From assembly GCF_002155905.1 (NCBI RefSeq), contig NZ_MUMF01000209.1, forward strand, positions 1 through 57,355: DNA of 57,355 bases, given 5' to 3'. A program made the translations under genes and the position numbers. The notes beneath the pieces are model-generated. The model saw nothing but the letters and a program-made list of their open reading frames with translations, was not told the origin of the DNA and ran no database searches. The stretch comes from Streptomyces tricolor. Its GTDB lineage: Bacteria > Actinomycetota > Actinomycetes > Streptomycetales > Streptomycetaceae. Below, piece after piece: positions 22,610 through 37,155 of this stretch (position 1 is its first letter; the number at the start of each line of letters is the position of its first letter).

Positions 22610-24544
22610 TCACCCGGTCCGGTTGATGTAGGCAGTGGTCACGCCCAGAGGCTTTCCGTCGGATGCCGGTGTGGTGCGGTAGTACACGTAGACCGTGTAC
22701 TTCTTTTTCTTGCGGCACCCACAGCCGGTCCAGTACGAGTACGTGATGTCCCACTTTCCGTCATAGACACCGCCCCAGGCGTTCCGCCACTTGCCTGATA
22801 TGAGCGCCTTCTTCAGGTCGCTGATCATGGTGGAGCTGGATCTCCACGCGGAGCGCTTCCCTGCTCCGACGTGCTTGTCCTTGATGTGCCGCAGACCGAA
22901 CTTGCCGTACTTCTTGCCGTTCACGGTGACGTTGGTGGTACTTCCCTCACGGATGGTCTTCCAATGGCTTCCGGGAGAGCGCGACCACATCAGGATGCGC
23001 CACTTGTCGCAGGGCTTGAAGGGGTTGCCCCAGGCGCCGCACCGGCCGTCGAGGTCGGTGCCGTTGACCGGGTCGGCGCAGACGAAATCGTAGGCGTTGC
23101 AGTTGCCGCCGAAGACCGGGTCCAGCTGGAGGAACCGCGCGGTGTTCGGGTCGTACAGCCGCGCGCCCATCAGGACGATTCCGGTGAGCGTCTCGCCGGA
23201 GCGCTGGTTGGAGCCGAACCATCCGTAGCGCTGGGCGGTCTTGCCCGTGCGGGAGGCGCCGTTCTCGTTGCTGTCGACGACCGTCGGCGCGACCGCCGAG
23301 TCCAGCGGCAGCTGGAGGGCGACGTCGCCGTGGTTGCTGGTCAGCTGGAGGACGGTGCCGCCGGTCTTGCCGGTGGTCGCGCTGAACGTGCCCGTGGCCG
23401 AGGTGACGTTGCGGGTCACGGTGCCCTGGGCGGCGTTCTCCACGATCCAGCTCGGGCTGTCCGTGTCGTTGCCGTAGTGGTTGGTCTTGGCTGCCGTCTG
23501 GCTCCAGGTGCCGGCGTTGTTGGTCTCCACTGTCCAGGAGCGGAACCGCAGTGCGGCGTCGAGTTGCCACGTCTGGCGCTGGGAACCGGCGGTCTGCCGT
23601 TGCACCAGGTCGTTGGCGTAGTACGACAGGGTCGAGCCCGGGAGCGCGGTCGTGCGCCCGAAGGCGTCGTAGGTGTAGCCCGAGTCGACGATGCGGTCCG
23701 CGGTGTCGCAGGTGCGGCTCTTCACCGTGCCCGCGCTGGTCGGGCAGAGCAGCCCGGGAGCGGCCGCGGCCTCGGTCGTGCCGGTCCGGTTGGAGCGGCT
23801 GTCCAGGGCGTACGTCCGCAGGGTGCAGATGTTGTCGCTGGTGTCCTCGACCCGGGTGAGGCGTCCGGCGTCGTCGTAGCCGAACTCCTGGTGCGACCAG
23901 CCGGAGCGGGTGGCGGCCTGGCCGTGGATGGTGGAGGTGGCGGCGTCGTTGTAGACGGTCACCCCGTCGCTGTCCCGGGTGTACGTGCGCTCGACGACGG
24001 CGCCCGTGGCGTCCTTGGCCTGCTTGAGCGTGTAGCCGCCCGGCAGCTTCTCGGAGGCCACCGCGCCGTCCGCGTCGTACGTGGCGGTGAAGGCGCCGGC
24101 GATCGAGTCGGTCACCTTGGTGGCCAGCCCTCGTGGCTCAAGGGTCGAGTCGTAGGTGTAGGTGACCGTGCTGGGGACGCTGTTGCCGACATTTACGGGG
24201 CGGTTGCGCCGGTCGTACGTGGTGGTGGTGGTGGTGGTGCCTCCGTCCGCGTCGGTGTAGGAGATCTCCCGGCCGAGCTTGTCGTAGGCGCGGGTCAGGG
24301 TGCCGCCGGTGGACGACGCCGTCTTGATCGCGCGGCCCGAATCGGGGTCGTAGCTCGTCGTGGTGGACGGTACGGCCGCACCGAGGCCGGTCGTCTGCAC
24401 GGTGGTGGGTCGGCCTGCCTCGTCGTAGCCGCGGGTGATGGTGCGGGTGGCCGTGCCGGCCCTCTCGGTGGTCTTCGCGGTGTTGCCCCACCAGTCGTAT
24501 TCGGCGGTCATCGTGGGCAGCTGGGCCGGGTTGGTCCCACCCAA
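22610..24544 (-). CDS. 5'-truncated Rhs-repeat protein with C-terminal toxin domain
   Basis: 644 residues from TTG 24544, directly preceded in frame by a stop; full Rhs proteins are typically well over 1,000 residues, so the N-terminus has been lost. Many YD repeats are visible (YDEAGRPTTV, YDKLGREISYTDADG, YDRRNRPVN), then the Rhs core end GARLYDPNTARFLQLDPV and the junction DPVNGTDLDG. The variable C-terminal ~144 residues are a toxin candidate with RHIKDKH (His553, His558), a Cys-rich GCGCRKKKK turn and a YTVYVYYRTT strand. That His plus late Tyr/Thr pattern fits RNases of the BECR (Barnase/EndoU/ColE5) type, but this is inference. A cognate immunity gene follows. Confidence 0.82.
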   Translation of the reverse strand: MGGTNPAQLPTMTAEYDWWGNTAKTTERAGTATRTITRGYDEAGRPTTVQTTGLGAAVPSTTTSYDPDSGRAIKTASSTGGTLTRAYDKLGREISYTDADGGTTTTTTTYDRRNRPVNVGNSVPSTVTYTYDSTLEPRGLATKVTDSIAGAFTATYDADGAVASEKLPGGYTLKQAKDATGAVVERTYTRDSDGVTVYNDAATSTIHGQAATRSGWSHQEFGYDDAGRLTRVEDTSDNICTLRTYALDSRSNRTGTTEAAAAPGLLCPTSAGTVKSRTCDTADRIVDSGYTYDAFGRTTALPGSTLSYYANDLVQRQTAGSQRQTWQLDAALRFRSWTVETNNAGTWSQTAAKTNHYGNDTDSPSWIVENAAQGTVTRNVTSATGTFSATTGKTGGTVLQLTSNHGDVALQLPLDSAVAPTVVDSNENGASRTGKTAQRYGWFGSNQRSGETLTGIVLMGARLYDPNTARFLQLDPVFGGNCNAYDFVCADPVNGTDLDGRCGAWGNPFKPCDKWRILMWSRSPGSHWKTIREGSTTNVTVNGKKYGKFGLRHIKDKHVGAGKRSAWRSSSTMISDLKKALISGKWRNAWGGVYDGKWDITYSYWTGCGCRKKKKYTVYVYYRTTPASDGKPLGVTTAYINRTG

Positions 24545-25103: not shown

Positions 25104-25514
25104 CTACCGGGCTGGCCGGGAGACGCCGCTGACGTACGCGCCGATGCCGCGCCGCTGAATGACCCCGCCGGGCACGATGCGGGCGTTCGAGGGCGGTTGA
25201 GGGATCTTGCGCTTCGCGCGCTGGGTCTGGTCGCCGCCGATCAGGTGCCGGTTGTCGATCAGGGCCTCGCAGTCGTCCTCTGCCACGTCTTCGTACGGCC
25301 GTCGGCAGTTGCGGCAGTACACCTCAAGGGCGTCCACGCGGGTGCCCGCCACGGTGGTGAAGCTGCCGCGGAAGTCGGCGAGCTTGGCGACGCGCTCCTC
25401 GACCTTGATCTCGGCCGCGACGATCCAGGCGTGGGCCAGGGCCTGGTCCAGTTCTTCGGCGGCGGTCGGCGGCGTGGGCTGTTCCGGGGGGGGTGCCCCT
25501 ATGACTTTGGTCAA
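25104..25514 (-). pseudogene. ICE conserved protein gene, 5' end cut off by IS110 insertion
   Basis: From 25493 downwards the frame encodes a cytosolic protein (AEELDQALAHAWIVAAEIKV, YCRNCRRP, IDNRHLIGGDQTQRAKRKIP, RRGIGAYVSGVSRPAR) of a type conserved in Streptomyces ICEs. Bases 25494-25514, including the apparent TTG start, belong to the IS110 end. On the other side of the element, 26898-26888 reads ATG ACT ACC TCC CC, overlapping the stop of the preceding ICE gene (ATGA). Joining the two restores a start M-T-T-S-P-P-E-Q. The Cys pair CRNC suggests a metal-binding knuckle. Confidence 0.7.
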
Positions 25515-26713
25515 GGGGTGATCGGGGTTGGTGGTTGGTAGAAGGCGCCGTCGCGGAGCATTGCGAAGAGCACGTCGGCCCGGCGGCGGGCGAGGCAGAG
25601 GATGGCCTGGGTGTGGTGCTTGCCCTGGGTGATCTTCTTGTCGTAGTAGCTGCGGGAGGCCGGGTCGGCCAGTGCGGCGAACGCGGAGAGGAAGAAGGCC
25701 CGTTTGAGCTGCTTGTTTCCTCTCCGAGAGGGTTGTTCGCCGCGGATGGAGGACCCGGAGGTCCGGGTCGCTGGAGCGAGGCCGGCATAGGCGGCGAGGT
25801 GGGCGGCGGACGGGAACGCGGTGCCGTCGCCGACGTCGATGAGGATGCGGGCGCCGGTCCTGATGCCGATGCCGGGCATGGACATCAGGACCTTGGAAAG
25901 AGGGTGGGCCTCCAGCAGTTCCTCGATCCGGTGGGCCAGCAGTTTGCGCTGGTCGAGCACGGCCTGGAGCGAGGAGGCGAGGCTGGGGACGATCAGTGCG
26001 GCCGCATCGGTGCCCGGGACGACGACGGTCTGTTCGTCGAGCGCGGTGAAGACGTCATCGATCAGCCGCTCGGCCATGCGCGGTGCTTTCGGCCGGATCA
26101 GGGTGATGAGCCGTCGGCGTCCGGCCTTGCGGATCTGGGCCGGCGAGCCGAACTGGTCCAGCAGCCTGAGCACGGCTGGGTGCTGCATGCGCGGGCCGAG
26201 GACCCGTTCCAGATGCGGGTGGATCTGTGTGAACAGGCCCCGCAGCCGGTTGGACAGGCGGGTCGCCTCGGCGGCGAGGTCGTCATCGAACCCGACAAGC
26301 ATCTGCAGCTCGGCGATCGTCTCGTCGTCGAGGTCGACCGATCGCAGTGTGTGGGGCATCGACCTGGCCGCGTCGGCAATGATGAACGCGTCCTTCGCGT
26401 CGGTCTTTGCCTCGCCGGGATAGAGGTCGGCGATCCTGCGCATCGTCAGGCCGGGCAGATAGGCGACGTGGCAGCCCAGGTCACGGGCGACGGTCAGCGG
26501 CAGGGCGCCGATGGAGGCCACCTGGTCGACGATGACGAGAACGGTGCCGTGCTTGGCCTGCAGCTTGGCGAAGACCTCGCGGAGCTTGGGCTCGCTGTTG
26601 GGCCGACGACGGTCGAAGGTCTTCTTCCCGGCCGGAGTGAGCGCGGTGGCGTGGTGTTCGCCCTTGCCGACGTCCAGGCCGAGGTAGACGTCGATGTCGC
26701 CGGTATCGATCAC
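25511..26713 (-). CDS. IS110-family transposase (DEDD recombinase)
   Basis: 400 residues from GTG 26713 with GGAGG nine bases upstream; longer in-frame sequence extends through the leader into ICE DNA and is spurious. N-terminal RuvC-like DEDD domain (YLGLDVGKGEHHATAL with Asp14; VIVDQVASIG; TDAKDAFIIAD) and C-terminal Tnp_20 domain with the catalytic Ser in RTSGSSIRGEQPSRRGN. All landmarks are intact, so it is probably active. IS110 recombinases are guided by a bridge RNA encoded in the element. Confidence 0.95.
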   Translation of the reverse strand: MIDTGDIDVYLGLDVGKGEHHATALTPAGKKTFDRRRPNSEPKLREVFAKLQAKHGTVLVIVDQVASIGALPLTVARDLGCHVAYLPGLTMRRIADLYPGEAKTDAKDAFIIADAARSMPHTLRSVDLDDETIAELQMLVGFDDDLAAEATRLSNRLRGLFTQIHPHLERVLGPRMQHPAVLRLLDQFGSPAQIRKAGRRRLITLIRPKAPRMAERLIDDVFTALDEQTVVVPGTDAAALIVPSLASSLQAVLDQRKLLAHRIEELLEAHPLSKVLMSMPGIGIRTGARILIDVGDGTAFPSAAHLAAYAGLAPATRTSGSSIRGEQPSRRGNKQLKRAFFLSAFAALADPASRSYYDKKITQGKHHTQAILCLARRRADVLFAMLRDGAFYQPPTPITP

Positions 26714-26887
26714 GTGCTGTGTCCTCCGGTCGTACTCACCCGGCCCTGCCACGGCACTGAGCGCCACATCCACATTACGAAGAGCCTCCCGACCTGCGAA
26801 GAAGTCGGTGGTCATGCCCCTAATCAGCGGTCTGTCAGTGCCTTTGGAGCTGGTGACACCACCCCCCAGGCCATGCACTCGACAAGG
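26714..26887 (-). ncRNA. Candidate IS110 bridge RNA in the element's 5' end
   Basis: This 174-base leader upstream of the transposase has the position and size of the bridge RNA described for IS621. It is structured: TGGTG-T-CACCA at about 26849-26859, and a G6-containing segment (minus strand CCTGGGGGGTGG, 26870-26859). That segment is antisense, with two mismatches and one gap, to the sequence at the insertion site (ATGACTACCTCCCC joined to CCCGG). Expression and loop assignment are inference. Confidence 0.5.
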
Positions 26888-27109: not shown

Positions 27110-27529
27110 TTACACCCCATGATGGGAAAGATCTCCGAGTTGCATGGAAGCGGGCTGCGCAAGGGCCAAACGAAGCAGTGTTTGGGCGTAGCGCTCGACT
27201 GGCATGTTCGCGGCTGCTGCGTTGACCGCCAGAGTGCGATGGTCAGCTGGATCTAACGGGATAAGCAGACAGCGTGCCGGGCCGATCCCGAGGAGCTGTG
27301 GCGTGTAAGGCCGACCCAGTTCTTCCGTCAAAAGGTCGGCAAGGAGTCCAGGAACAGGGGCGCGGGGCTTCTCGCCGTGGCGAATCCATCGGCCGACCCG
27401 GGAGCGGTCAACGGCGACGCTTCGATGGCCTCGCTCCCGCGCCCGGGTGTTGATACGGCGAGCCGTCTCGCTGTTGTTCCATCCGGCCTCGGAGAGGGCA
27501 AGAGCGAGCGCGTAGTTGGGGGCCCTCAT
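27110..27529 (-). CDS. HTH regulator of the ICE remnant with a ribbon-helix-helix-like tail
   Basis: 139 residues from ATG 27529 (weak ribosome binding site). The N-terminal ~75 residues (NYALALALSEAGWNNSETAR, then DRSRVGRWIRHGEKPRAPVP and LADLLTEELGR) match the HTH start of actinobacterial regulators that normally continue into TPRs. Here the TPRs are replaced by IPLDPADHRTLAVNAAAANM and ERYAQTLLRLAL, which looks like the second half of a ribbon-helix-helix/antitoxin-type fold. Probably autoregulatory; a 22-bp near-palindrome lies 46 bases upstream of its start. Confidence 0.65.
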   Translation of the reverse strand: MRAPNYALALALSEAGWNNSETARRINTRARERGHRSVAVDRSRVGRWIRHGEKPRAPVPGLLADLLTEELGRPYTPQLLGIGPARCLLIPLDPADHRTLAVNAAAANMPVERYAQTLLRLALAQPASMQLGDLSHHGV

Positions 27530-27708: not shown

Positions 27709-29145
27709 ATGGCAGAAACCGCAATCCCCACGATCGTCCCGAGCCTGTCGGCCGGTGAGCCCGTCGACCTGTCCCGCCCGCACTTCGTCGGGATCGCCGG
27801 TACCGGCATGCTGCCCGTGGCGCGGGTCTGCGCGGAGCGCGGGCTGTCCGTCTCCGGCAGCGACGTCACGGCTTCGCAGCGAGTGGAGGAGCTGGCTCGG
27901 CTGGGCGTGACCGTGCACACCGGGCACGCCGCCGAGCAACTGCCGGCGGACGCCACCGCGGTGGTGTTCACGCACGCCATCGCACCGGACAACCCCGAGA
28001 TCCTCGCGGCACGGGAGCGGGGCGTTCCCGTGGTGCACCGGTCGGCGGCGCTGGACGCTCTGATGTCCGGGCGCCGCGCTGTCGGGGTGCTCGGAACGCA
28101 CGGCAAGTCCAGCACGGCGGGCATGCTGGCCGTAACGCTCAGCCGCATGGGCGAGAGCCCGTCGTACGCGGTCGGCGCCGACCTCGAAGGCCCGGGAAGC
28201 GGTGGCCGCGCGGGCGACGGCAGCGTGTTCATCGCCGAGGTCGATGAGTCGGACCGCACGCTCCTCGGGGTCAGGGTGAACGTCGCGGTGGTGACGAACA
28301 TCGACTACGACCACCCGGAGAACTACGCCAGCGCAGCGGACTACCTGAACGCGTTCGAGGCGTCCGCCCGGGGCATGGGGGCGGAAGGCACGGTCGTACT
28401 GAACGCCGACTCCGCCGGCTGCATCGAGTTGGCGTCCCGGCTGAAGACCGGGGAAGGGCCGCGGGTCGTGATGTTCGGTGCGTCGTCCTCGGCGGACTGG
28501 TGCCTGTCGGAGATGGCCAGCGCCGACGGGCGCAGCTCGGCGCTGCTGTGCGGGCCGCAGGGTCGGCAGTTCCATCTGTCGCTGCGAATCCCGGGCGTGC
28601 ATCAGCTGATGAACGCTGCTGCGGCTGTCGCCGCCCTGCACGTCCTGGACCAGGATCTCGACCTGGCGATGGAGCAGTTGGGCTACTACGGCAGCGTGCA
28701 GAGGCGGATGACCTCGGCGGGCATGATGGCGGGAGTGCGGATCTACGACTCCTACGCGCACCACCCCACCGAGGTCGCCGCGGACCTGAGCGCCGCGCGC
28801 AGCCTGGCGGGGACGGGTCGGCTGATCATGCTGTTCCGCCCCACCGGCCAGGCCCGGCTCGACACGTTCGGCGCCGAGGTCGGCAAGGCGCTGGCCGGGA
28901 GCGACGCCGTGGTGCTCACGGGCGACGCGCGTCTCAGCGAGGCGTCGCTGCGTGAGCTGTCCGTCTCCATCGGCCAGGCCGGGGGCTCGGTCCTGGCCGT
29001 GGAGACGGCGCGGGAGGACGCCGTGGTGTGCGCCTCGAAGGCGGCGCAGGCCGACGACGTGGTGGTGCTGATGGGGACCGGCGACCTGAGTGAGTGCGGG
29101 CTGATGCTCCGGCGCACTCTGGCCGACATGGCCCCCGTCGCCTAA
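27709..29145 (+). CDS. MurC-like amino-acid ligase
   Basis: 478 residues from ATG 27709 with GGAGGAGG upstream. Mur ligase layout: N-terminal Rossmann domain HFVGIAGTGMLPVA (residues 25-38; canonical MurC has GxGGxGM), ATP loop GTHGKSST (129-136), AEVDESD (176-182), TNIDYDHPENY (196-206), and C-terminal DSYAHHPTEV (347-356). MurC joins L-Ala to UDP-MurNAc; Mpl, a relative, joins a tripeptide. The usual FQPHRYTR motif is FRPTGQARLD here, so the substrate may differ. It is unaccompanied by murD, murE or murG, and its stop overlaps that of the convergent MurF-like gene by three bases. Unlikely to be the housekeeping murC. Confidence 0.85.
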   Translation: MAETAIPTIVPSLSAGEPVDLSRPHFVGIAGTGMLPVARVCAERGLSVSGSDVTASQRVEELARLGVTVHTGHAAEQLPADATAVVFTHAIAPDNPEILAARERGVPVVHRSAALDALMSGRRAVGVLGTHGKSSTAGMLAVTLSRMGESPSYAVGADLEGPGSGGRAGDGSVFIAEVDESDRTLLGVRVNVAVVTNIDYDHPENYASAADYLNAFEASARGMGAEGTVVLNADSAGCIELASRLKTGEGPRVVMFGASSSADWCLSEMASADGRSSALLCGPQGRQFHLSLRIPGVHQLMNAAAAVAALHVLDQDLDLAMEQLGYYGSVQRRMTSAGMMAGVRIYDSYAHHPTEVAADLSAARSLAGTGRLIMLFRPTGQARLDTFGAEVGKALAGSDAVVLTGDARLSEASLRELSVSIGQAGGSVLAVETAREDAVVCASKAAQADDVVVLMGTGDLSECGLMLRRTLADMAPVA

Positions 29146-30539
29146 GCGTCCGCGGGGTAGGGGTCCGGTTCCAGCAGCCGGTCGGCGAGCTGCTGCAACT
29201 GGACCCCTCGGCTTGCCTTGACCAGGACGACGTCGCCGGGACGGAGGATCGAGTGGAGCAGGTCCAGCGCGGTGTCCTGGTCGGGCAGGTGGATGGCCTT
29301 CCCGCCGACGCTGCTCACGCCCTGCTGCATCCATCCGGCTTCGTCCCCTCCCACCAGGATGATCCGGTCCAAGCCCAGCGTGGCGGCGTACTTGCCGATC
29401 TCCTCGTGCTCGGTGCGTGCGTCGTCGCCGAGCTCGTTCATCCGGCCGAGGACGGCGATGGAGCGCTGGTCATGGCCGCCGGTCATGGAGGCCAGGGCGT
29501 CCAGGGAGTGGCGCATCGAGGTGGGGTTGGCGTTGTAGGCGTCGTTGACGATCGTGACCCCGTCGGCCCTGGTGGTCGTCTCCATCCGCCAGCGGGAGCG
29601 CGGAAGGGCTTCGGACAGGCGCGCGGCGACCTGCTCGACGTAGAGCCCTGCTTCGCGGGCGACGGCGGCTGCGGCCAGGCTGTTGGGGACTTGCACGTCG
29701 CCGACGAACTGAAGCTGGACGCGGGCGCTGCCCTCGGGGGTGACCAGGGTGTAGGAGGCGCGGCCCTGCCGGTCGGTCGCGACGTCGACGGCGCGGATGG
29801 TGGCCTGTTCGTTGAGCCCGTACGTGACGATGCGGCCCCGGGTGCGGTGCTGCATCTCCCGTACGAAGTTGTCGTCGGCGTTGAGGACGGCGAGACCGCC
29901 TGGGGGGAGCGCTTCGACGATCTCGCCCTTGGCCTGGGCGATGTTCTCGCGGCTGCCGAACTCGCCGACGTGCGCGGTACCGACGTTGGTGACGACGCTG
30001 ATGTCGGGCTGGGCGATCCGGGTGAGGTCGCGGATGTCGCCGATGTGGCGGGCGCCCATCTCCAGGACGAGGTAATCGGTGTCCTTGTCGGCCATGGTGA
30101 TCGTGAGCGGGAGGCCGATTTCGTTGTTGAAGGACTGCGGTGTGGCGACCACGTTGCCGGGGAGCACCTGAGCGATGAAGTCCTTCGTGCTCGTCTTGCC
30201 GGCCGAGCCGGTGATGGCCACGACGGTGGCCTGGCCGACCGTATCGTGCAGGAGGAAGCGGCCGAGTCGTCCGAACGCGGTGAGGACGTCGTCGACGACG
30301 ATTGCGGGGACGCCGACAGGGTGCGTGACGAGCGCGGCGACCGCGCCCTTGTTGATGGCGGCCTCGGCGTACGCGTGGCCGTCGGAGTGCTGGCCCTTGA
30401 GCGCGAGGAAGAGCGATCCGGGGACGGCTTCGCGGGAGTCGAACACGGCGGGCTGCGTGACTTGGGCCTCGGGGTCCAGGACGTCGGCGAGACGTCCGCC
30501 GGCGATGGCTGCGATCGTGGTCAAAGACGTGGCGTGCAA
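29142..30539 (-). CDS. MurF-like peptide ligase
   Basis: 465 residues from TTG 30539 with GGGAG eight bases upstream. MurF landmarks: N-terminal AVFDSREAVPGSLFLALKG, ATP loop ITGSAGKTSTK (109-119), FNNEIGLPLT, TNVGTAHVGEFGSREN, and the signature DAYNANPTSM (333-342). Housekeeping MurF adds D-Ala-D-Ala to UDP-MurNAc-tripeptide. Here it ends a four-gene operon that starts with a D-Ala-D-Ala-ligase-like gene, so it may attach that enzyme's dipeptide product to an acceptor. Starts 16 bases after the peptidase gene stops. Confidence 0.9.
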   Translation of the reverse strand: MHATSLTTIAAIAGGRLADVLDPEAQVTQPAVFDSREAVPGSLFLALKGQHSDGHAYAEAAINKGAVAALVTHPVGVPAIVVDDVLTAFGRLGRFLLHDTVGQATVVAITGSAGKTSTKDFIAQVLPGNVVATPQSFNNEIGLPLTITMADKDTDYLVLEMGARHIGDIRDLTRIAQPDISVVTNVGTAHVGEFGSRENIAQAKGEIVEALPPGGLAVLNADDNFVREMQHRTRGRIVTYGLNEQATIRAVDVATDRQGRASYTLVTPEGSARVQLQFVGDVQVPNSLAAAAVAREAGLYVEQVAARLSEALPRSRWRMETTTRADGVTIVNDAYNANPTSMRHSLDALASMTGGHDQRSIAVLGRMNELGDDARTEHEEIGKYAATLGLDRIILVGGDEAGWMQQGVSSVGGKAIHLPDQDTALDLLHSILRPGDVVLVKASRGVQLQQLADRLLEPDPYPADA

Positions 30540-30554
30540 CGTGATTCTCCCTGC

Positions 30555-31268
30555 TCAGGTGGTTGGGTGCGACGCTACCGGGCGGGACACGGCCGTCATG
30601 GAAGGCCAGCGCCGTACGGTGCTGCGCGGGTCGAGTGAGATGCCCCGGCCGCCGAAGAAGGCGCCGAAGCGGTCCAGGGGCATGGCGGGCGCAAGGGCCT
30701 TTGGGGTGTGGCCGCTCGGGTTGCGGAGGACGATCTCCCCGTCTTGGCGGCCGATGGCCAGCACGAGGTGCCCGCCGCGGCGCTCCGGGTCGATGTCCGG
30801 GCGGCGGATTTCCTTGGAGACGGAGACCATCACCATCCGGCTGGCGTCCAGGAGATCTACGAGACCGTCCAGGTCGAGTTCCCTGTGCACTTCGCCCGGG
30901 AGTTGGTGAGTGTCCGCCACGTACTTGACGAAGGGCGCATAGATCAGGCCCTTGATCGTGCTGTCCTGCTGGACGTACGCGCCGTAGCGGACGGCGCCGG
31001 TGAGGAGTTCGAACAGGCTGGGGGCGTGGCCGTCACGGTGCAGGAGCACCATGCGCAGGCAGGCGATGCCGCACATGTGCCGACACCAGCGGGCGTACAT
31101 GGTACGGGTCGGGGCGCCGGTGCGCTCCCAGTTGGGGTCATCGCCGGGGTCGTGTCCGTCGTATGCAATGCGGCCGATCAGGTCGGCGGAGGCGTACTGG
31201 GTGACCGTCCACACGGGATGGTGGACGGCTCCGGGTGTGGACGTGTTAGTGCAGCACGGCGGCGGCAT
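30555..31268 (-). CDS. C39-like cysteine peptidase
   Basis: 237 residues. ATG 31268 has GGAGAG eight bases upstream and overlaps the PLP-enzyme gene by 23 bases; a later GTG lacks a good site. Papain-like C39 features: catalytic Cys66 in RHMCGIACLRMVL, His167 in RRGGHLVLAIG, then RNPSGH with Asn183 as the likely third residue. No signal peptide or transporter domain, so cytosolic. C39 enzymes usually cut peptides after Gly-Gly or act in release of ligated peptides; a role as hydrolase, transpeptidase or cyclase on the cluster's peptide product is inference. Confidence 0.8.
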   Translation of the reverse strand: MPPPCCTNTSTPGAVHHPVWTVTQYASADLIGRIAYDGHDPGDDPNWERTGAPTRTMYARWCRHMCGIACLRMVLLHRDGHAPSLFELLTGAVRYGAYVQQDSTIKGLIYAPFVKYVADTHQLPGEVHRELDLDGLVDLLDASRMVMVSVSKEIRRPDIDPERRGGHLVLAIGRQDGEIVLRNPSGHTPKALAPAMPLDRFGAFFGGRGISLDPRSTVRRWPSMTAVSRPVASHPTT

Positions 31269-32250
31269 GTGGGGGGCTCTCCATTCGGGTGATGGCGATG
31301 TCCAGTTGGGTTCTGTAGGTGTTCCAGTCGACGTTGCCGCCGGAAACGACCACGCCGACCGGGCCGTCCGGGAGACGCTTGAGGGCCTGGAGCAGCCCCG
31401 CGAACGCGACGGCACCGGAGGGCTCGACCACGAGACGGAAGTGGCGGTAGAGGTGCGCCATCGCCTCGGATATCGCCTCCTCGGGCACTGTGACGACGTC
31501 GGCGAGGAGACGTTGGTTGATCTCGAAGGGGATGCGGGCGGGTTCGGAGTGACCGAGCCCGTCAGCGATGGTGGCCGGCGGTGGGATGGAGATGAGCTGA
31601 CCGACTCGCAGGGAACGATGCGTGTCATCGGCGAGGGCCGGCTCGACGCCGAACACCTGGAGGCTCGGGTCGTGCCCGCTCGCCGCTAGCGCGGTGCCGG
31701 CCGCAAGTCCGCCACCACCCACCGGCACGAGTAGTGCGGCCAGATCGGGGGCTTCCTGGAGCATCTCCCAGCCGACGGTGCCAGCCCCGGCGATGACGTT
31801 GGGGTGGTTCGCGGAGGGCACGATCGTCAGACCGTGCCGGTGGGCGATCTGGTGGACCAGGGCGTCACGGCGGCCGGAGAGACGGTCGTAGGTCACGATG
31901 CGTGCGCCGAGGGCCTCGGTCGCCTGCCGTTTGGCTGCGGGGAGATCCTTGGGGACCACCACGATGGCCGGTACACCAAAGTGGCGAGCGGCCAGGGCGA
32001 GGGCAGCGGCGTGGTTGCCGGAGGAGGCGCAGATGACGCCTCGACTGCGGTCCGGGGCGCTCACGAGCGCCAGTGCGTTGTAGGCGCCGCGGAATTTGAA
32101 GCTGCCGGTGCGTTGTTGGTTTTCCGCCTTCAGCCAGACTTGGCGGCCGATCTGCTCGTTGAAGGCCTCCGAGGTGAGCATGGGAGTTCGCACGGCGACA
32201 CCGCGCAGGTTCTCCACGGCCTGGAGGAGCTGGTGGATTGTCACTGTCAC
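31246..32250 (-). CDS. Fold-type II PLP enzyme (threonine dehydratase / serine racemase-like)
   Basis: 334 residues from GTG 32250 with GAGAGG upstream. PLP lysine Lys52 in GSFKFRGAYNAL, substrate loop SSGNHA (76-81), phosphate loop VGGGGLAAG (177-185), and a C-terminal VVVSGGNVDW. There is no ACT regulatory domain, so it is of the catabolic dehydratase / serine-racemase type. Within an operon beside a D-amino-acid ligase, supplying D-Ser, D-Thr or a dehydrated amino acid is an attractive inference. Its 3' end overlaps the peptidase gene; it begins 20 bases after the ATP-grasp gene. Confidence 0.9.
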   Translation of the reverse strand: MTVTIHQLLQAVENLRGVAVRTPMLTSEAFNEQIGRQVWLKAENQQRTGSFKFRGAYNALALVSAPDRSRGVICASSGNHAAALALAARHFGVPAIVVVPKDLPAAKRQATEALGARIVTYDRLSGRRDALVHQIAHRHGLTIVPSANHPNVIAGAGTVGWEMLQEAPDLAALLVPVGGGGLAAGTALAASGHDPSLQVFGVEPALADDTHRSLRVGQLISIPPPATIADGLGHSEPARIPFEINQRLLADVVTVPEEAISEAMAHLYRHFRLVVEPSGAVAFAGLLQALKRLPDGPVGVVVSGGNVDWNTYRTQLDIAITRMESPPHAAAVLH

Positions 32251-32270
32251 GGCGTGGGCCTCTCGGGTCC

Positions 32271-33245
32271 TCACGGGCGCGTACGGCGGTCGATGTCCGC
32301 GCCGCGCAGGATGTGGGTCAACAGCAGCTCGTACGGGATGCCGTCGGCGAGCGCCATGCGGGCCAGGTTTCCGGCCCGCGACAGGCCGGGCAGTGTGTTG
32401 ATCTCCAGCCACCAGGCGCGGCCATCGTCGCCGACGACGAAGTCGTGCCGGGAGTACGAGTGGCAGTACAGGGCGCAGTGCGCAGCCGCCGCCTGGCGCT
32501 GAAGGTCCGCCAGCGTGTCGGGGCTGACCCGGGCTGGACAGTGGTAGTCGCACTCGGCGTCGCCGCGCTTCGCGGCGTAGGAGTAGATGCCGTTCGGCGT
32601 CCGAGCTTCCAGCGCCGGCAGGACGTGCACGACGCCGAGCTGGTCTTCCAGGACGCCGACGCTCACCGCCCGCCCCGGAATGAACGCCTCGGCCATCAGC
32701 TCCCCGTCGGCGACATCGATGAGCGCCTGAGCGAGGCTGTCCACCGTGGGAGCGACCTGGAGCCCGATTGACCCGCCTTCACTGACCGGCTTGACCATCA
32801 CGGGCAGCTCCAGCATGCGGCTGACGCGCAGGCTCTCGTCCTCAGCGGTCGCGGTCGGGTCGATTCGGGTTCCGCGGGGAACTCGTACGCCGGCGGCTGA
32901 CACCACGGTCTTGGCGGTGATCTTGTTCATGCCGATGGCGGAGGCCAGCACGCCCGATCCGGTGTAGGGGATGTCGAGGGTTTCCAGCAGGCCCTGGAGG
33001 CGGCCGTCCTCCGCGCCCCGGCCTGCGATGGCCAGGAAGGCTTTCGAGGCTTCGGCGAGGCCTTCGAGGAGCGTGTCGCGGTTGTCTGCGAGGTCTAAGA
33101 CGAGGGTTTTGACCCCCATCTCGGACAGTGCCTCGGCAACGGTGTTGCCTGACAGCCAGGAGCGATCCTTTTCGCGGGACCATCCGCCGGTGATCACCGC
33201 GATGGGATCTCTGATGTCGGCTGGGTCGAGGGGGGCAATACGCAT
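32271..33245 (-). CDS. D-Ala-D-Ala-ligase-like ATP-grasp enzyme
   Basis: 324 residues from ATG 33245 (GGAGACCTCC region upstream). Ddl landmarks: EDGRLQGLLE (79-88), YTGSGVLASAIGMNK (94-108), KPVSEGGSIG (152-161), RHDF (266-269) and the Mg-binding EINTLPG (281-287). The usual His-Gly before the first motif is Gly-Arg and the DK of MDK is NK, so substrate choice may differ from Ddl. It should join two amino acids with ATP. It is the first gene of the operon leading to the MurF-like gene, with a strong terminator-like hairpin just upstream separating it from the preceding gene. Confidence 0.9.
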   Translation of the reverse strand: MRIAPLDPADIRDPIAVITGGWSREKDRSWLSGNTVAEALSEMGVKTLVLDLADNRDTLLEGLAEASKAFLAIAGRGAEDGRLQGLLETLDIPYTGSGVLASAIGMNKITAKTVVSAAGVRVPRGTRIDPTATAEDESLRVSRMLELPVMVKPVSEGGSIGLQVAPTVDSLAQALIDVADGELMAEAFIPGRAVSVGVLEDQLGVVHVLPALEARTPNGIYSYAAKRGDAECDYHCPARVSPDTLADLQRQAAAAHCALYCHSYSRHDFVVGDDGRAWWLEINTLPGLSRAGNLARMALADGIPYELLLTHILRGADIDRRTRP

Positions 33246-33286
33246 GGAGGTCTCCGTCTGGTCACTGTGGTGCCCTGCGGTCGTGA

Positions 33287-33323
33287 CCCTGCCGCCGAGC
33301 GGGGGAACACCTCGGCGGCAGGG
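33287..33323. terminator. Strong hairpin upstream of the ATP-grasp gene
   Basis: Perfect 13-bp arms CCCTGCCGCCGAG / CTCGGCGGCAGGG with an 11-base loop, in the gap between two minus-strand genes. It could terminate upstream transcription or serve as a leader attenuator or operator for the operon starting at 33245. Confidence 0.55.
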
Positions 33324-33331
33324 AGTGGAAG

Positions 33332-33373
33332 CCCGCGCGCGGCGGCGCGTGACGGTCAGCCGCCGCGCGCGGG
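33332..33373 (-). terminator. Terminator hairpin of the upstream two-gene unit
   Basis: Perfect 15-bp arms (CCCGCGCGCGGCGGC mirrored) with a 12-base loop, beginning two bases after the stop of the gene ending at 33376. Position and strength fit a factor-independent-type terminator lacking a T-tract. Confidence 0.7.
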
Positions 33374-33375
33374 AG

Positions 33376-33975
33376 TCAGAAGGCCGCCCCCAGCACCGCT
33401 ACCTCGGGAAGCGCCTCGTGGGGGATGGGGCCGGGCTGGTGATTGGACAGCAGCTCTCGAAGTGGGATCGGGGGTACGAGCCGGTCGCCGCGGCAGGGCC
33501 GCAGCCAATACGCCCCAGGCGGTTCCGAGTGCTTCATCGCCGGCAGAACGATCTGATGGGGGCGCCCGAGGCACACGCCGAACCGGTGCGGCTCCCACCT
33601 CTGGCTCGTACCGGGAGGTACGAGCCAGATCAGGCAGCCGCGTTCCGGGTCTTCGATGACGGGGCCGCAGGCGTCGACCGGGCCCTCCACGTCGGTGCCG
33701 CGCTGGACCAGGTCCATGCTGCGGACCGCTTCCAGGGCGGCAGGCCCGCTCGCGGTGATCACGACGTCGAACAGGTTGCCCCCCAGGGGGAGCTGGACAA
33801 GTCGCCCTCTCTGGAAGTCCAGAATGTTCCTCACGCGGGTGGCCAAGTCCCCCATGTCCGGGGCAACGTCCTCGGGCGTGAGCGTGACGCCCACGGGGTC
33901 GAACTTGGCAGCCTGCGCCGCCGGGAGTTTTCGGTCCGGGGTGACCGTACGCTGGGCAAGCGGCGACCTGGTCAC
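33376..33975 (-). CDS. Conserved actinobacterial protein of unknown function
   Basis: 199 residues from GTG 33975, overlapping the stop of the ATP-binding protein gene (GTGA). No signal peptide. The C-terminal half (GCLIWLVPPGTSQRWEPHRF, GVCLGRPHQIVLPA, PPGAYWLRPCRG) resembles the uncharacterised proteins, related to N-terminal primase-polymerase-like folds, that pair with HATPase proteins in Streptomyces. I cannot assign an activity. Co-transcribed with the HATPase gene and followed by a strong hairpin, so it is a separate unit from the ligase operon. Confidence 0.6.
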   Translation of the reverse strand: MTRSPLAQRTVTPDRKLPAAQAAKFDPVGVTLTPEDVAPDMGDLATRVRNILDFQRGRLVQLPLGGNLFDVVITASGPAALEAVRSMDLVQRGTDVEGPVDACGPVIEDPERGCLIWLVPPGTSQRWEPHRFGVCLGRPHQIVLPAMKHSEPPGAYWLRPCRGDRLVPPIPLRELLSNHQPGPIPHEALPEVAVLGAAF

Positions 33976-34541
33976 ACGGACTCACCCCACGCCATGGGGA
34001 GAATGACCTGCACGGTTTTGCCCACCACCTGGTCGCTGTCGTCTCTCAAGACGTCCCAGGACAGTCGCGCTCGGTAGTGGCTCACCCACCAAAGGCCGCT
34101 CCCCGTCTTGGCTTCCGCGAGGGCCTTCTCGGCATTGGGGAACTCCGGTGTGCCGTCGTCCACCTCGATGGCGAGTTCACCGGTCGGGAGTTCCACCAGT
34201 CGCAGCGGAACCTTGCCGTCGCTCATGGATTCGGCGTGTGCTGCCGCGTTGCCCACGAGCACGCTCGCCAGGCGCGTCGCGGCGTCGCTGTTCCCGGGCC
34301 AGTTGGCGACGTGAAGGGCAGGACGAACGCGAAGTCGCGCGTTGCGATGCGCGTCCTCGTTCGCCGTCAACGATGTGCTCCAGCTCCACCGGGAGCGTGC
34401 CGGCTCCTTCTCTTCCTCCCGGAGGGGGAGAGCGATCACGGACGCGACGGCCGCAGCACCTTGACCCGCGTCGGCTGGCGCCGTTCCGGATTCGGTCGCT
34501 TGACTGGTGGGGAGTGGGATGCGCTGCGTCGGGGGGTTCAC
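33972..34541 (-). CDS. Anti-sigma-factor-like HATPase protein
   Basis: 189 residues from GTG 34541 with GGGAG upstream. After a low-complexity N-terminus (~70 residues) comes a GHKL ATPase core: WPGNSDAATRLASVLVGNAA (N box region), LAIEVDDGTPEF (G1) and TGSGLWWVSHY (G2), then VQVILP. Such RsbW/SpoIIAB-like ATPases in Streptomyces act as anti-sigma factors or signalling partners of regulators. Divergent from the TPR regulator across a region with an 11-bp inverted repeat. Confidence 0.8.
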   Translation of the reverse strand: MNPPTQRIPLPTSQATESGTAPADAGQGAAAVASVIALPLREEEKEPARSRWSWSTSLTANEDAHRNARLRVRPALHVANWPGNSDAATRLASVLVGNAAAHAESMSDGKVPLRLVELPTGELAIEVDDGTPEFPNAEKALAEAKTGSGLWWVSHYRARLSWDVLRDDSDQVVGKTVQVILPMAWGESV

Positions 34542-34647
34542 GGGGGGCTCCCTGGTTCACGATTGCGCTCGGACGTGCACTGTCAGCGAGGGTGTTGATC
34601 AGCGTCGTCCCGTTCGGGGTGCCACCGCCATGTCAGCGGGGTGCCAT

Positions 34648-34692
34648 TTGAGTGGCCGTCACGCGGCCAACGGTCAGCTGGCGGCCACTCAA
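34648..34692. promoter_or_regulatory. Inverted repeat in the divergent promoter region
   Basis: TTGAGTGGCCG (34648-34658) and CGGCCACTCAA (34682-34692), perfect 11-bp arms 23 bases apart, between the HATPase gene (minus) and the TPR regulator (plus). GGTGCCA also recurs directly upstream. Likely binding site for the TPR regulator. Confidence 0.5.
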
Positions 34693-34808
34693 GTGCCGTC
34701 CTGCACAGATGTGTTGCACTGGAGAAGAACGGCGGTATCCCCTTCGTGCGAAGGGATCGATCCGCAGGCGGACCGCCGACAGGCCTGGCTCGAGGACTGG
34801 GGGACGAC

Positions 34809-36137
34809 GTGAGTGCACCACCCGAGACGCTCCTGAAGCAGCTTTGCGATAAGCGCGGCTTGGGCGTCCCCGAGTTCATCAAGCTGTTCGACCACATAGC
34901 TGACGAGGTCGTGCAGAAGGGCCCCGACAACCCGACGTGCAGTGAAAGAACCGTCCGCCGCTGGAGAGCCGGGGACGTCAATCCCGATTCGCTGTCCCCG
35001 GACACCCGCCGCGTGCTGAAGGCCATGCTCGGCCGGAGCGTCGCAGACCTGTTCGCGCCGCCGCCTCAGCCCGCAGATCCGAAGGCACCCGCGTTCAACC
35101 TGGAGCAAGAAATCAACATGACCGCCCGCGACGCCCAGGACGAAGCCAGCGCAGCAGCCGCGGCATCCGTCTCCGACACCACCCTCGACCAACTCACTGA
35201 CGACGTGATGGAGCTCGCGCGCGACTACGACTCCATCGCACCGTACGAGGCCTTCAGAAGGGGCCAGAAGCTCCGGGGCGAACTCGCGCTCCGACGCGAC
35301 CAGACGGAGGTACCAGTTCAGAAACAGCGGCTGCTGGTACTGAGCGGCCAGACCATGGCCTTGCTCGCCGCTTCCGCCTTCGACCTCGGCGTCTTCCCCG
35401 CTGCTACCCGGCTGGCTCGCGCTGCCGACCTGTACGGAGAAACCGCCCGCTTCGAGCCGTTGCGGGCGTACGCCGATGGCATCCTTGCCTACGTCGCCTA
35501 CTTCACGGGCGAGCCCGGTGAGGCCGTCAGCAAGGCCCGGCGGGCACAGACGTACGGCGGCCTCGGCGACGTCGCTCGCCGACGGCTGCTCGCGATCGAG
35601 GCCCGCGCGCACGGGTACCTCGGCGACTACGAGACCGCCCTCCGCACAGTCCGGTTGTCCGAGGAGATCGAGAGCGGGGCGCGCGACGACCTGCACGACG
35701 GGGTCGGCGGTGAGTTCGGCTTCACACCGGAACGACTGGCCATGTCCAGCAGCTCCACGGCCCTCCTCATCGAGCAGGCAGACCACGCCGAGCAAGCAGC
35801 ACGTCGGGCTCTCCACCTCATCCAGCAGAAGCCGGCGGAAGCCCGATCCGCTCACGTCCTCGGCGGTGCTGCCGCCGACCTGGCCATGGCCCGGCTGCTC
35901 GCCGATGACGTGGAGAGCGCTGCCGAGGCGCTGACCCCGCTGTGGAACATCCCGGCGGACCAGCGCGTAACCGGCGTACTCGTGAGGACTAGGCAGATCC
36001 AGCACTTCCTTGCACGGCCGGCCTTCCGTGCGGCCGTACTGCCGCGCGAACTGCGCGACCGCCTGGAGGACTTCACCAGCGCAGCGAACAGGCGTCAGCT
36101 CGGCGACCGGTCCGTGCTGCTTCAGCTGGAAGCCTGA
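34809..36137 (+). CDS. TPR-containing transcriptional regulator
   Basis: 442 residues from GTG 34809 (GGGGGA upstream; a longer frame exists but lacks a good start). N-terminal DNA-binding part (FDHIADEVVQKG, then CSERTVRRWRAGDVNPDSLSP) followed by many TPR-like helical pairs (SFDLGVFPAATRLARAADLY-like, GEPGEAVSKARRAQ, GYLGDYETALRTV, HAEQAARRALHLI, DDVESAAEALTPL). This is the Streptomyces regulator class often linked to specialised metabolism and signalling clusters. Divergent from the HATPase gene and probably in control of the ligase locus. Confidence 0.82.
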   Translation: MSAPPETLLKQLCDKRGLGVPEFIKLFDHIADEVVQKGPDNPTCSERTVRRWRAGDVNPDSLSPDTRRVLKAMLGRSVADLFAPPPQPADPKAPAFNLEQEINMTARDAQDEASAAAAASVSDTTLDQLTDDVMELARDYDSIAPYEAFRRGQKLRGELALRRDQTEVPVQKQRLLVLSGQTMALLAASAFDLGVFPAATRLARAADLYGETARFEPLRAYADGILAYVAYFTGEPGEAVSKARRAQTYGGLGDVARRRLLAIEARAHGYLGDYETALRTVRLSEEIESGARDDLHDGVGGEFGFTPERLAMSSSSTALLIEQADHAEQAARRALHLIQQKPAEARSAHVLGGAAADLAMARLLADDVESAAEALTPLWNIPADQRVTGVLVRTRQIQHFLARPAFRAAVLPRELRDRLEDFTSAANRRQLGDRSVLLQLEA

Positions 36138-36138
36138 G

Positions 36139-37155
36139 TCAGGCCAGAGAAGCGAGGATCTTCGCTTCCTTCTCCGGGGCGATCCCGTGCTCTGCCCACC
36201 TCGGGTGGTCCACGGGACGCCCATCGGCTGCGAGCCAGGCCCAGGTGTCGCGGACCGTTTCCGCGATCGGCCGGCACCGCAGCCCCGCGGCGACCGCCCG
36301 GCTGGAGTCAACCGCCCAGACACCGGCGTGCGTACGCCACAGCGGCAGCTCGGTCCACTGAGCAATGCCGTGGTCGACCAGGACGTCCGGCGCCACCCAT
36401 ACCGGCTTTCCGGCCCCGCCGGTGACGGAGAGGCATTCGCCGATGAAGCCTTCGAAGGTGATGCCGTCTGGGTGGGTGACGTTGTAGCTGCCGCTCGTGT
36501 CGCTCGCGGCCTGGTCGAGGGCGAACTCCGCGACGTCGCGGACGTCGACCGGCTGAATGCGCTGCCCGCTCGGCGCGGGAGCGAGGATCTTCCCGCCCCG
36601 CTTGGCCCGGGTCAGCCACCACGGGAGTCGGCCGACGTACTCCCCGGGGCCCAGGATGACCCCGGGCCGCAGGAACACTGCGGCGTCGCCGAAGGCCTCG
36701 GACACAGCGCGTTCCCCACCAGCCTTCTGGAATCCGTAGACCGTGGGGCTCCCGTCCTCGCCGGTGTATCCGTACGACTCGTCTGCGTCGGCCGGGCAGT
36801 CCAGGACGGGGGAGGCGTCATTGAGCGGCTGATGTGGCCACCCCTGGTAGACGGACACAGTCGAGATGTGGACCCAGCGGCGAGCCACATCGCGGAGAGT
36901 GGTCGCGGCCAGCAGGACATCCCGGGGCGGGAAGTCGGAACTGGACGTGTCGACTACGGCGTCCCACGGCCCCTGCTGGGCAAGGCGTTGCAGGTCTTCG
37001 CGGACGGTTCGGTCCCCGTGTACTGGCTGTACGCCTTCCACGTCCTGGCCGGAACGCCCGCGATTGAAGGTGGTTACAGACCACCCTCGCGCGAGCGCTC
37101 CCTCCGCAATGAACTTCCCCAGGAACCAGGTTCCACCGATGACCAGAATCCTCAT
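36139..37155 (-). CDS. NAD-dependent epimerase/dehydratase (extended SDR)
   Basis: 338 residues from ATG 37155. Rossmann start MRILVIGGTWFLGKFIAEGA, a nucleotide-discriminating RGRSG, the substrate domain with STVSVYQG and catalytic YGFQKAGGE (YxxxK), then QPVDVRDVAEFAL and SYNVTHPDG. Sugar-nucleotide or reductase role possible; the sequence is of the isoflavone-reductase-like/extended-SDR type common in actinobacteria. It converges with the TPR regulator with almost no gap. Whether it belongs to the ligase locus is unclear. Confidence 0.88.
   Translation of the reverse strand: MRILVIGGTWFLGKFIAEGALARGWSVTTFNRGRSGQDVEGVQPVHGDRTVREDLQRLAQQGPWDAVVDTSSSDFPPRDVLLAATTLRDVARRWVHISTVSVYQGWPHQPLNDASPVLDCPADADESYGYTGEDGSPTVYGFQKAGGERAVSEAFGDAAVFLRPGVILGPGEYVGRLPWWLTRAKRGGKILAPAPSGQRIQPVDVRDVAEFALDQAASDTSGSYNVTHPDGITFEGFIGECLSVTGGAGKPVWVAPDVLVDHGIAQWTELPLWRTHAGVWAVDSSRAVAAGLRCRPIAETVRDTWAWLAADGRPVDHPRWAEHGIAPEKEAKILASLA

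Follow-up and report, generated by a model that had tools for sequence, protein, structure and literature searches.

Examination of a 57,355-nucleotide contig of Streptomyces tricolor (NZ_MUMF01000209.1; this whole stretch is referred to below as the window) revealed a compact set of five genes whose predicted products are a D-alanine-D-alanine ligase (Ddl)-family enzyme, a pyridoxal-phosphate (PLP) enzyme, a C39-like cysteine peptidase and two Mur ligases resembling MurF and MurC. An original prediction, made from the sequence alone, had described this set together with a few genes at its upstream end, and every gene that it named was found intact at its place (start codons are our choice). 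The five core genes are the following:

27709-29145, plus strand: MurC-like Mur ligase, convergent on MurF, with an altered amino-acid-site motif
29142-30539, minus strand: full-length MurF paralogue with a TTG start (TIGR01143)
30555-31268, minus strand: C39-like (papain-fold) cysteine peptidase of 237 amino acids, ATG at 31268 (borderline PF13529; structural model; fold matches)
31246-32274, minus strand: fold-type II PLP enzyme of the serine-racemase / threo-3-hydroxyaspartate-lyase type (PF00291; 1v71)
32271-33245, minus strand: Ddl-family ATP-grasp ligase with altered substrate-site residues (Pfam/NCBIfam; active-site columns)

The four minus-strand genes succeed one another in the order Ddl, PLP enzyme, C39 and MurF and are overlapping or closely packed, as had been predicted: Ddl and the PLP gene share 4 nucleotides, the PLP and C39 genes 23 nucleotides, and a short gap separates C39 from MurF. 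MurC converges on MurF, the tails of the two genes overlapping by 4 nucleotides.

A scan with an alignment of the C39 protein, with one genome per species, returned 292 relatives, and loci (numbered with the prefix L) were built around the best 80 of these, some of them cut by contig ends. Among these 80 loci, 11 carry all five genes (MurC being split into two open reading frames in L088) and 5 all but MurC; the rest hold Ddl with the PLP enzyme (2), MurF only (2), the PLP enzyme only (2), an aminotransferase only (43) or none of these partners (15). The neighbourhood, whose restriction to this strain would have spoken against the original prediction, recurs in other species and, at least partly, in other genera. 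The five-gene set is found in other Streptomyces and in Kitasatospora, and partial sets occur in Nocardiopsis (Nocardiopsis sp. FR4), Saccharothrix (Saccharothrix sp. ST-888) and Nonomuraea, on chromosomes as well as plasmids. Annotated plasmids of Streptomyces sp. 11x1, NBC_01205, NBC_01244 and S. chartreusis carry the full set, whose members are annotated simply as ddl, murF, Mur ligase and dehydratase, and a contig of Streptomyces albogriseolus JCM 4616 holds the same genes at 99-100% protein identity. In a phylum-wide sample, where seven candidates per genome were scored, the C39 alignment matched 3 of 396 genomes at 1e-8, the window's own included, which is weak evidence of rarity.

Two layouts of the set can be distinguished: (i) layout A, Ddl-PLP-C39-MurF facing MurC, found in the window, S. 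phaeofaciens and S. poonensis, and (ii) layout B, MurC facing MurF with MurF divergent from Ddl-PLP-C39, found in S. turgidiscabies and Kitasatospora. MurC and MurF are convergent in both. The genes flanking the set differ between most of the 35 loci compared, the recurrent ones (identified by eye) being a regulator-like family, K5 (8 loci), HATPase-like families and a relaxase-like family, K7 (4 loci); some other flanking genes recur within the closely related group L098, L099, L103 and L107. A larger biosynthetic cluster was considered and rejected, as nothing beyond the five genes is widely recurrent across the 35 loci. In S. chartreusis the genes tgmB and tgmC adjoin the set; the remaining plasmid regions with annotation showed neither. 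In L067, on contig C1 of genome G091, the same MurC match and C39 fragment occur twice, near 138 kb and near 10.128 Mb of a linear-looking contig of 10.27 Mb. Each copy stands about 138 kb from one end, as expected of a terminal inverted repeat.

The partners of the C39 gene were also surveyed in a congeneric sample of 246 genomes, 63 of which had a C39 match, the window's own included. Of 71 C39 places, 67 were classified. The remaining four are that of the window itself, the second of two telomere copies in G091 and an additional fragment each in G079 and G100. For seven of the classified places the view extended over 1.5 kb of flank only, and some lie near contig ends. Ddl was present within 6 kb of C39 at 26 of the 67 places and MurF or a piece of it at 22. 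By chance, a Ddl would be expected at roughly 0.3% of places, a figure calculated from a density of about 1.8 Ddl-like genes for each genome (10 genomes, most of which were picked for their C39 clusters, gave 19 matches, of which two are halves of a single gene). The association of C39 with Ddl and MurF is more than chance. The arrangements comprise DapF, Ddl, C39 and a MurF C-domain (10 places); Ddl, C39 and MurF or a MurF C-domain (5 places); vanH, vanA, vanX, C39 and murF (4 places, L068, L070, L071 and L072, all in Streptomyces), with C39 directly after vanX; Ddl and C39 (2 places); the PLP gene with a damaged Ddl (2 places); the singles L040, L041, L042, L062, L067 and L234; aminotransferase and C39 (23 places); and C39 without such a partner (15 places).

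Racemase/epimerase-type enzymes of two unrelated families, PLP and DapF, take the same place beside Ddl, the DapF-like protein of L076 scoring 178.5 bits against a cut-off of 114.65 for TIGR00652. At L072, VanX (396.7 against 320) and the D-Ala-D-Lac ligase (595.8 against 550) pass their models and VanH falls just under its own (509.5 against 540); nearby genes encode a FemAB-family protein, a histidine kinase and a response regulator. Genes for D,D-peptidases (M15) or D-aminopeptidases (M55) are neighbours of the C39 gene in some loci: the order is Ddl-PLP-C39-M55 on a Nonomuraea plasmid and Ddl-PLP-C39-M15 on a Rhodococcus plasmid, and L062 carries Ddl-PLP, C39 and M55, M15/VanX genes being found in Rhodococcus, L234 and the van loci. 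An Agrobacterium plasmid carries C39-Ddl.

Other associations of the C39 gene and of MurF pieces were observed alongside these. Stand-alone MurF C-terminal pieces follow Ddl-C39 in L048, L049, L057, L075-L078, L228-L232, L235 and L236, and overlap the C39 gene by a few bases in L048, L057 and L076. C39 and an alanine-aminotransferase-like (AlaA-like) gene form a two-gene unit in L044-L047, L108-L158 and L237-L247, with a 4-nucleotide overlap in L047; the one AlaA-like protein scanned scored 345 against an alanine aminotransferase cut-off of 534, and the AlaA labels on L039 and L073 are matches to parts of other aminotransferases. This pairing, in 43 of the 80 loci and 23 of the 67 sampled places, may reflect a link between the peptidase and alanine supply. 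In a Mesorhizobium terrae plasmid (L219), C39 lies directly after oligopeptide/dipeptide ATP-binding cassette (ABC) transporter and membrane dipeptidase genes, which hints at a catabolic use.

The original prediction had held that the locus is not the housekeeping murein cluster, a view that depended on its mur and ddl genes not being the only copies of the genome. A Mur_ligase_M search of the host genome (8.8 Mb in 1107 contigs) gave eight matches, two in the locus, three on contig C167 and one each on C211, C577 and C207; none of the further Mur ligases detectable by this search, which did not extend to MurA, MurB, MurG and MraY, lies on the same contig as the locus. The genome holds other murE/F/D-type, murC and ddl genes, and their location on other contigs rules out the housekeeping cluster. 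The Ddl, MurF and MurC of the set belong to the same families as the housekeeping Streptomyces enzymes but occupy a separate locus, have altered Ddl and MurC substrate-site motifs, and share only 33, 56 and 42% identity, respectively, with their closest paralogues in the same genome (on C177, C167 and C211). Among congeners, housekeeping-type copies were found for MurC in 12 of 12, for Ddl in 10 of 10 and for MurF in 7 of 8 genomes, the eighth being 79% complete. A phylogeny against housekeeping copies, as the original prediction had proposed, places cluster MurF and MurC in separate clades. In the MurF tree, layout A forms a clade (100/100) apart from that of the Streptomyces housekeeping MurF (100/100), deeper joins being weak and branches long; L093 was omitted from tree and alignment for its over-long open reading frame call. 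In the MurC tree the housekeeping clade (100/100) stands apart from layout A (100/100) and layout B (92/89).

The Ddl-family ligase just passed NF002378 (244.7 against 243 bits) and failed TIGR01205. Its residues were compared, in Escherichia coli DdlB numbering, with those of DdlB, 10 housekeeping Ddl and other Ddl-like proteins, in an alignment that it enters as L079 (100% identical). Six substitutions were found in the window ligase (V18R, H63A, S150G, Y216R, S281G and L282N), together with conservation of E15, K97, K144, E180, R255, D257, E270, N272 and G276, which are taken as the ATP-grasp catalytic residues. The available part of one study describes Ser150 and Tyr216 as conserved in Ddls making only D-Ala-D-Ala (PMC7691350), and that of another places DdlB Glu15 and Arg255 within hydrogen-bonding distance of a bound inhibitor (PMC5717164). 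The equivalents of Glu15 and Arg255 are kept in the window ligase and the Ser150/Tyr216 markers of strict D-Ala-D-Ala specificity are replaced by G and R, so that canonical specificity residues are lost and catalytic residues kept. The two arginines added to the substrate region suggest that a substrate is perhaps acidic.

These changes are shared by most ligases linked to the PLP enzyme. R18, A63, G281, N282 and A284 (DdlB V18, H63, S281, L282 and P284) occur in 24 of 26, G150 in 23 of those 24 (C in L082) and R216 in 22 (E in L082, N in Nonomuraea); several of the 24 rows are near-copies and do not count as 24 independent events. The two exceptions, L062 and Rhodococcus, have A18, A150 and H216, plus Q at E180. 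Ligases of the Ddl-C39-MurF type (4 scored: L048, L049, L057 and L060) have G18, G150, H216, G281 and N282, and those linked to DapF (3 scored: L075-L077) show N282 together with L or I at 216. L039 and L073, whose Ddl is fragmented, were left unscored, as were L051, L078 and L228-L236, the Ddl of L231 being in pieces. H63, S150, K215, Y216 and S281 are kept in all 10 housekeeping Ddl, in two unlinked Ddl-like proteins and in the Agrobacterium ligase, and positions 18 (I or V) and 282 (M or L) vary even among canonical ligases. An extra Ddl-like gene 6 kb from the L087 cluster has R215, with Y216 kept.

Both Mur ligases of the window contain Mur_ligase N, M and C domains. The MurF scored 423.9 against 288.6 bits for TIGR01143 and keeps the DSR, DGH, GKT and NAN motifs, as a three-domain MurF should. 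Identity to Streptomyces housekeeping MurF over the N-terminal, middle and C-terminal domains was 55/57/52% for layout A (8 rows), 62/62/49% for layout B (10 rows) and 56/54/48% for van-linked copies (4 rows), L060 and L177 being omitted from these tallies; four housekeeping MurF of other genera, a control from which the Streptomyces row L170 was excluded, gave 56/61/63%. The C-domain is the least conserved part of cluster-linked MurF and the best conserved part of the control. We take this domain to be the site where the incoming dipeptide binds, the roles and borders of the MurF domains being assumed. The window MurC scored below the TIGR01082 cut-off (315.4 against 335.1) and keeps the P-loop, DESD and AHHP motifs. 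Its FQPH(L/R)(Y/F)SRT motif, presumably the amino-acid site, reads FRPTGQARL, which does not fit a MurC adding L-alanine; the motif is altered in all 12 cluster MurC rows (two of them identical), and all 14 reference rows share its His.

The PLP enzyme falls below every NCBIfam cut-off among 25 of 42 families listed, the best of those listed being PRK07048 (347 against 452), and its best solved match is 1v71, which we take to be the Schizosaccharomyces pombe serine racemase. All 22 linked enzymes, the window type included, retain the PLP lysine, and 20 of the 22 have the SSGNH motif, which is replaced by ASTGNH in L062 and L221; this lysine and the second serine of SSGNH presumably have the catalytic roles known for fold-type II serine racemases. 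By these features the protein is a probable amino-acid racemase.

The C39 protein barely passes PF13529 (24.2 against 24 bits). Its Gln, Cys and His are invariant in 20 of 20 aligned relatives, the fourth position being N or D. A sequence search found no close solved relative (best E 0.088), and no hydrophobic N-terminal segment was seen by eye. An AlphaFold2 model (predicted local distance difference test score, pLDDT, 91.9) matches solved C39 peptidase domains, namely those of PCAT1 (Z 15.2, root mean square deviation 2.5, 138 aligned residues) and ComA (Z 14.3). A pseudomurein endoisopeptidase (Z 13.8, 3.3 A, 145 aligned) ties with ComA and is suggestive only. Foldseek neighbours include phytochelatin synthase (rank 23) and CtaG (rank 36), to both of which we ascribe an amide-forming chemistry.

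Around the five genes the following features were noted:

27110-27529, minus strand: NsdA/NsdB-like N-terminal protein of 139 amino acids, beyond MurC, below the cut-offs of those models
33376-33975, minus strand: unknown protein of 199 amino acids, without Pfam/NCBIfam match
33972-34541, minus strand: HATPase_c-like regulator (weak PF02518)
34809-36137, plus strand: NsdA-family tetratricopeptide repeat (TPR) regulator, divergent (NF053720)
36139-37155: reductase-like gene

The TPR regulator, HATPase-like gene and unknown gene that had been predicted at the upstream end are present, although the HATPase_c match is weak (E 0.0083; 17 bits against a cut-off of 26.4); we assume this regulator to be of RsbW type. 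The unknown and HATPase genes overlap by 4 nucleotides. Relatives of the HATPase-like gene lie upstream of Ddl in L080 and L081, and relatives of the 199-amino-acid gene in L080 and L060. The TPR regulator (76.1 against 75 bits for NF053720) and the reductase-like gene also stand beside Ddl-C39-MurF-C in L048 (70% and 83% identity), and the 139-amino-acid NsdA/NsdB-like protein adjoins MurC in L080, L082, L083 and L067 as well. The upstream regulators are only loosely tied to the core. The region lies between genes for an IS110-type transposase (25511-26815) and for a phage-type integrase (42905-44041) and may therefore be an island; a search of the window for tRNA genes found none. A large open reading frame nearby (22610-24544) has a weak RHS-repeat match and a distinct C-terminal part. 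Anti-phage defence was considered and set aside, as PADLOC returned no match for eight window proteins.

How these genes might act together can be proposed by analogy with VanC-type resistance. At about even probability, in our judgement, the set is a stem-peptide remodelling cassette made of a racemase, an altered D-X-D-Y ligase, a dedicated MurF, a cysteine peptidase and often a MurC. Such a cassette would be horizontally mobile and self-contained, would apply the logic of VanC/VanG with other protein families, and would yield a non-standard pentapeptide on UDP-N-acetylmuramic acid (UDP-MurNAc). The PLP enzyme would racemise an amino acid, of serine or aspartate type, to its D form; the altered Ddl would join a pair of D-amino acids that includes at least one other than alanine, perhaps an acidic one; the dedicated MurF would add this dipeptide to UDP-MurNAc-tripeptide; and the peptidase, acting in the cytosol, would remove the usual dipeptides or precursors ending in D-Ala, leaving the altered ones to prevail. 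In cassettes that include it, the MurC-like ligase might change or re-supply the first residue. The likely benefit would be resistance to an agent that binds or mimics D-Ala-D-Ala. The original prediction had offered two readings, stem-peptide remodelling with resistance, or a short-peptide pathway whose product the peptidase would release or cyclise. The former is now better supported because MurF keeps its motifs, C39 follows vanX in four clusters, M15/M55 genes adjoin Ddl-PLP-C39 (Rhodococcus, Nonomuraea and L062) and the ligase has lost its specificity residues; the latter stays as a rival. A bolder version, which we regard as doubtful, is that of a plasmid-borne kit replacing the alanine-using precursor steps (positions 1, 4 and 5), where the pentapeptide would end in a non-alanine, perhaps acidic, D-dipeptide, the papain-fold peptidase would do the clean-up done by zinc peptidases in van systems, and lone MurF C-domains would retune the housekeeping MurF in trans.

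Several observations weigh against stem-peptide remodelling. In layout A, to which the window belongs, the effect on the MurF C-domain is small, and in many C39-Ddl clusters MurF is a 114-123-amino-acid C-terminal piece that should not ligate by itself; the two pieces scanned match Mur_ligase_C alone. Several clusters lack MurC, the N-terminal loop of layout-A MurC, presumably the nucleotide site, is changed too (GMSG to GMLP), and the L067 MurC has no P-loop lysine; the carrier used by MurC, and even its activity, are therefore in doubt. The ligases of L062 and Rhodococcus carry another non-canonical residue set and that of Agrobacterium is canonical. Decayed copies exist (L041, L067 and L073). 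C39 stands with an aminotransferase only at 43 of 80 loci, against 18 of 80 with Ddl (23 against 26 of 67 in the congeneric sample), and with none of these partners at 15 of 80 and 15 of 67, so its role cannot be specific to Ddl and MurF. Judging from the model, with CtaG among its matches, the papain-like fold allows amide formation instead of hydrolysis. Lastly, neither a VanX/VanY-like protein nor a sensor kinase was among the ten window proteins scanned with Pfam and NCBIfam.

The main rival, which we hold to be unlikely, is a soluble D-peptide pathway, in which the racemase and altered Ddl would make a D-dipeptide, the Mur ligases would extend it on another carrier and C39 would release, transfer or cyclise the product, a natural product or signal. 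The altered amino-acid motif and layout-A nucleotide loop of MurC would fit such a pathway, as would the CtaG and phytochelatin synthase neighbours of the C39 fold, given their amide-forming roles, and clusters with only a MurF C-domain should not themselves ligate to UDP-MurNAc. Yet no exporter or tailoring gene recurs beyond the five genes in the 35 loci, MurF keeps recognisable motifs, and the association with vanHAX and with M15/M55 genes speaks for a role in the wall. Even so, a Mur-ligase-based D-peptide pathway would come with a clear residue signature to search for.

A bypass of antibiotic targets, in which resistant versions of the racemase, Ddl, MurF and MurC would keep up production of the normal precursor when the housekeeping copies are blocked by an antibiotic that mimics alanine, seems to us quite improbable. 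The enzymes present do correspond to the alanine-using steps, those for D-Glu and diaminopimelate being absent. A mobile Ddl variant with D-cycloserine resistance is known, but according to the available part of that study the resistant Ddls keep the Ser150/Tyr216 equivalents (PMC7691350), and the window ligase has lost both and more; nor would a bypass need a peptidase. The least probable account, in our estimate very improbable, is that these are decaying or catabolic paralogues for D-amino-acid peptides, carried on mobile elements and belonging to no dedicated pathway. It could draw on the decayed copies at L041, L067 and L073, on the Mesorhizobium C39 gene after a dipeptide ABC transporter and membrane dipeptidase, and on the lack of Ddl beside C39 in 62 of the 80 loci built around the best C39 relatives; against it stand the intact, overlapping open reading frames of the window, a gene order conserved in many species and parallel residue changes with catalytic residues kept.

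If stem-peptide remodelling is correct, the set amounts to a mobile system of wall remodelling in soil actinobacteria that differs from the van types compared here; a wall precursor with a new peptide would be predicted, and a testable function is offered for a C39-like peptidase family that also occurs inside some vanHAX operons. In the accessible parts of the open-licence literature we found no description of this gene set or of a C39 gene in van clusters; the main text of a 2021 survey of actinobacterial van genes, as far as available, contains murF six times and the term C39 nowhere (PMC8698665). Among known mobile Ddl genes, the integron-borne variants conferring D-cycloserine resistance resemble the cassette in being mobile extra copies, but, in the part of the source available, they keep the Ser150/Tyr216 equivalents and made only D-Ala-D-Ala (PMC7691350). 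Actinobacterial vanHAX clusters with murF likewise combine a Ddl-family ligase with an extra MurF, and four Streptomyces copies also hold C39. No VanH or VanX lies beside the ligase among the ten window proteins scanned, both being present in L068 and L070-L072, and the window ligase has K-R at 215-216 where those of L068 and L072 have E-D or E-N.

The closest parallel is with the VanC/VanE/VanG operons of D-Ala-D-Ser-based glycopeptide resistance (VanT racemase, VanC-type ligase and VanXY peptidase). In the general van scheme, as given in the available part of a review, a racemase or dehydrogenase, a ligase and a dipeptidase act together and MurF adds the dipeptide; in VanC/VanG the dipeptide made by racemase and ligase is D-Ala-D-Ser, which MurF attaches, and D-Ala-D-Ala is cleared by a peptidase (PMC8541618). 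The cassette similarly encodes a racemase-type enzyme, an altered ligase and a peptidase together, and by the same scheme its dipeptide would go onto UDP-MurNAc-tripeptide (PMC8541618). Membership in the VanC family is ruled out by the scores of the window ligase, far below the VanC/E/G/L/N models (VanG 137.5 against 495 bits; VanC 76.2 against 650), and by a peptidase that is not of M15 type, no M15 (VanX/VanXY) match being found among the ten window proteins scanned. The racemase-type enzyme of the cassette is a fold-type II PLP protein, or a DapF-like one in sister clusters, and we take the window enzyme to belong to a family other than that of VanT. In contrast to VanC/E/G, moreover, the peptidase is C39-like, the ligase carries a different residue set, and the cassette brings its own MurF and often a MurC.

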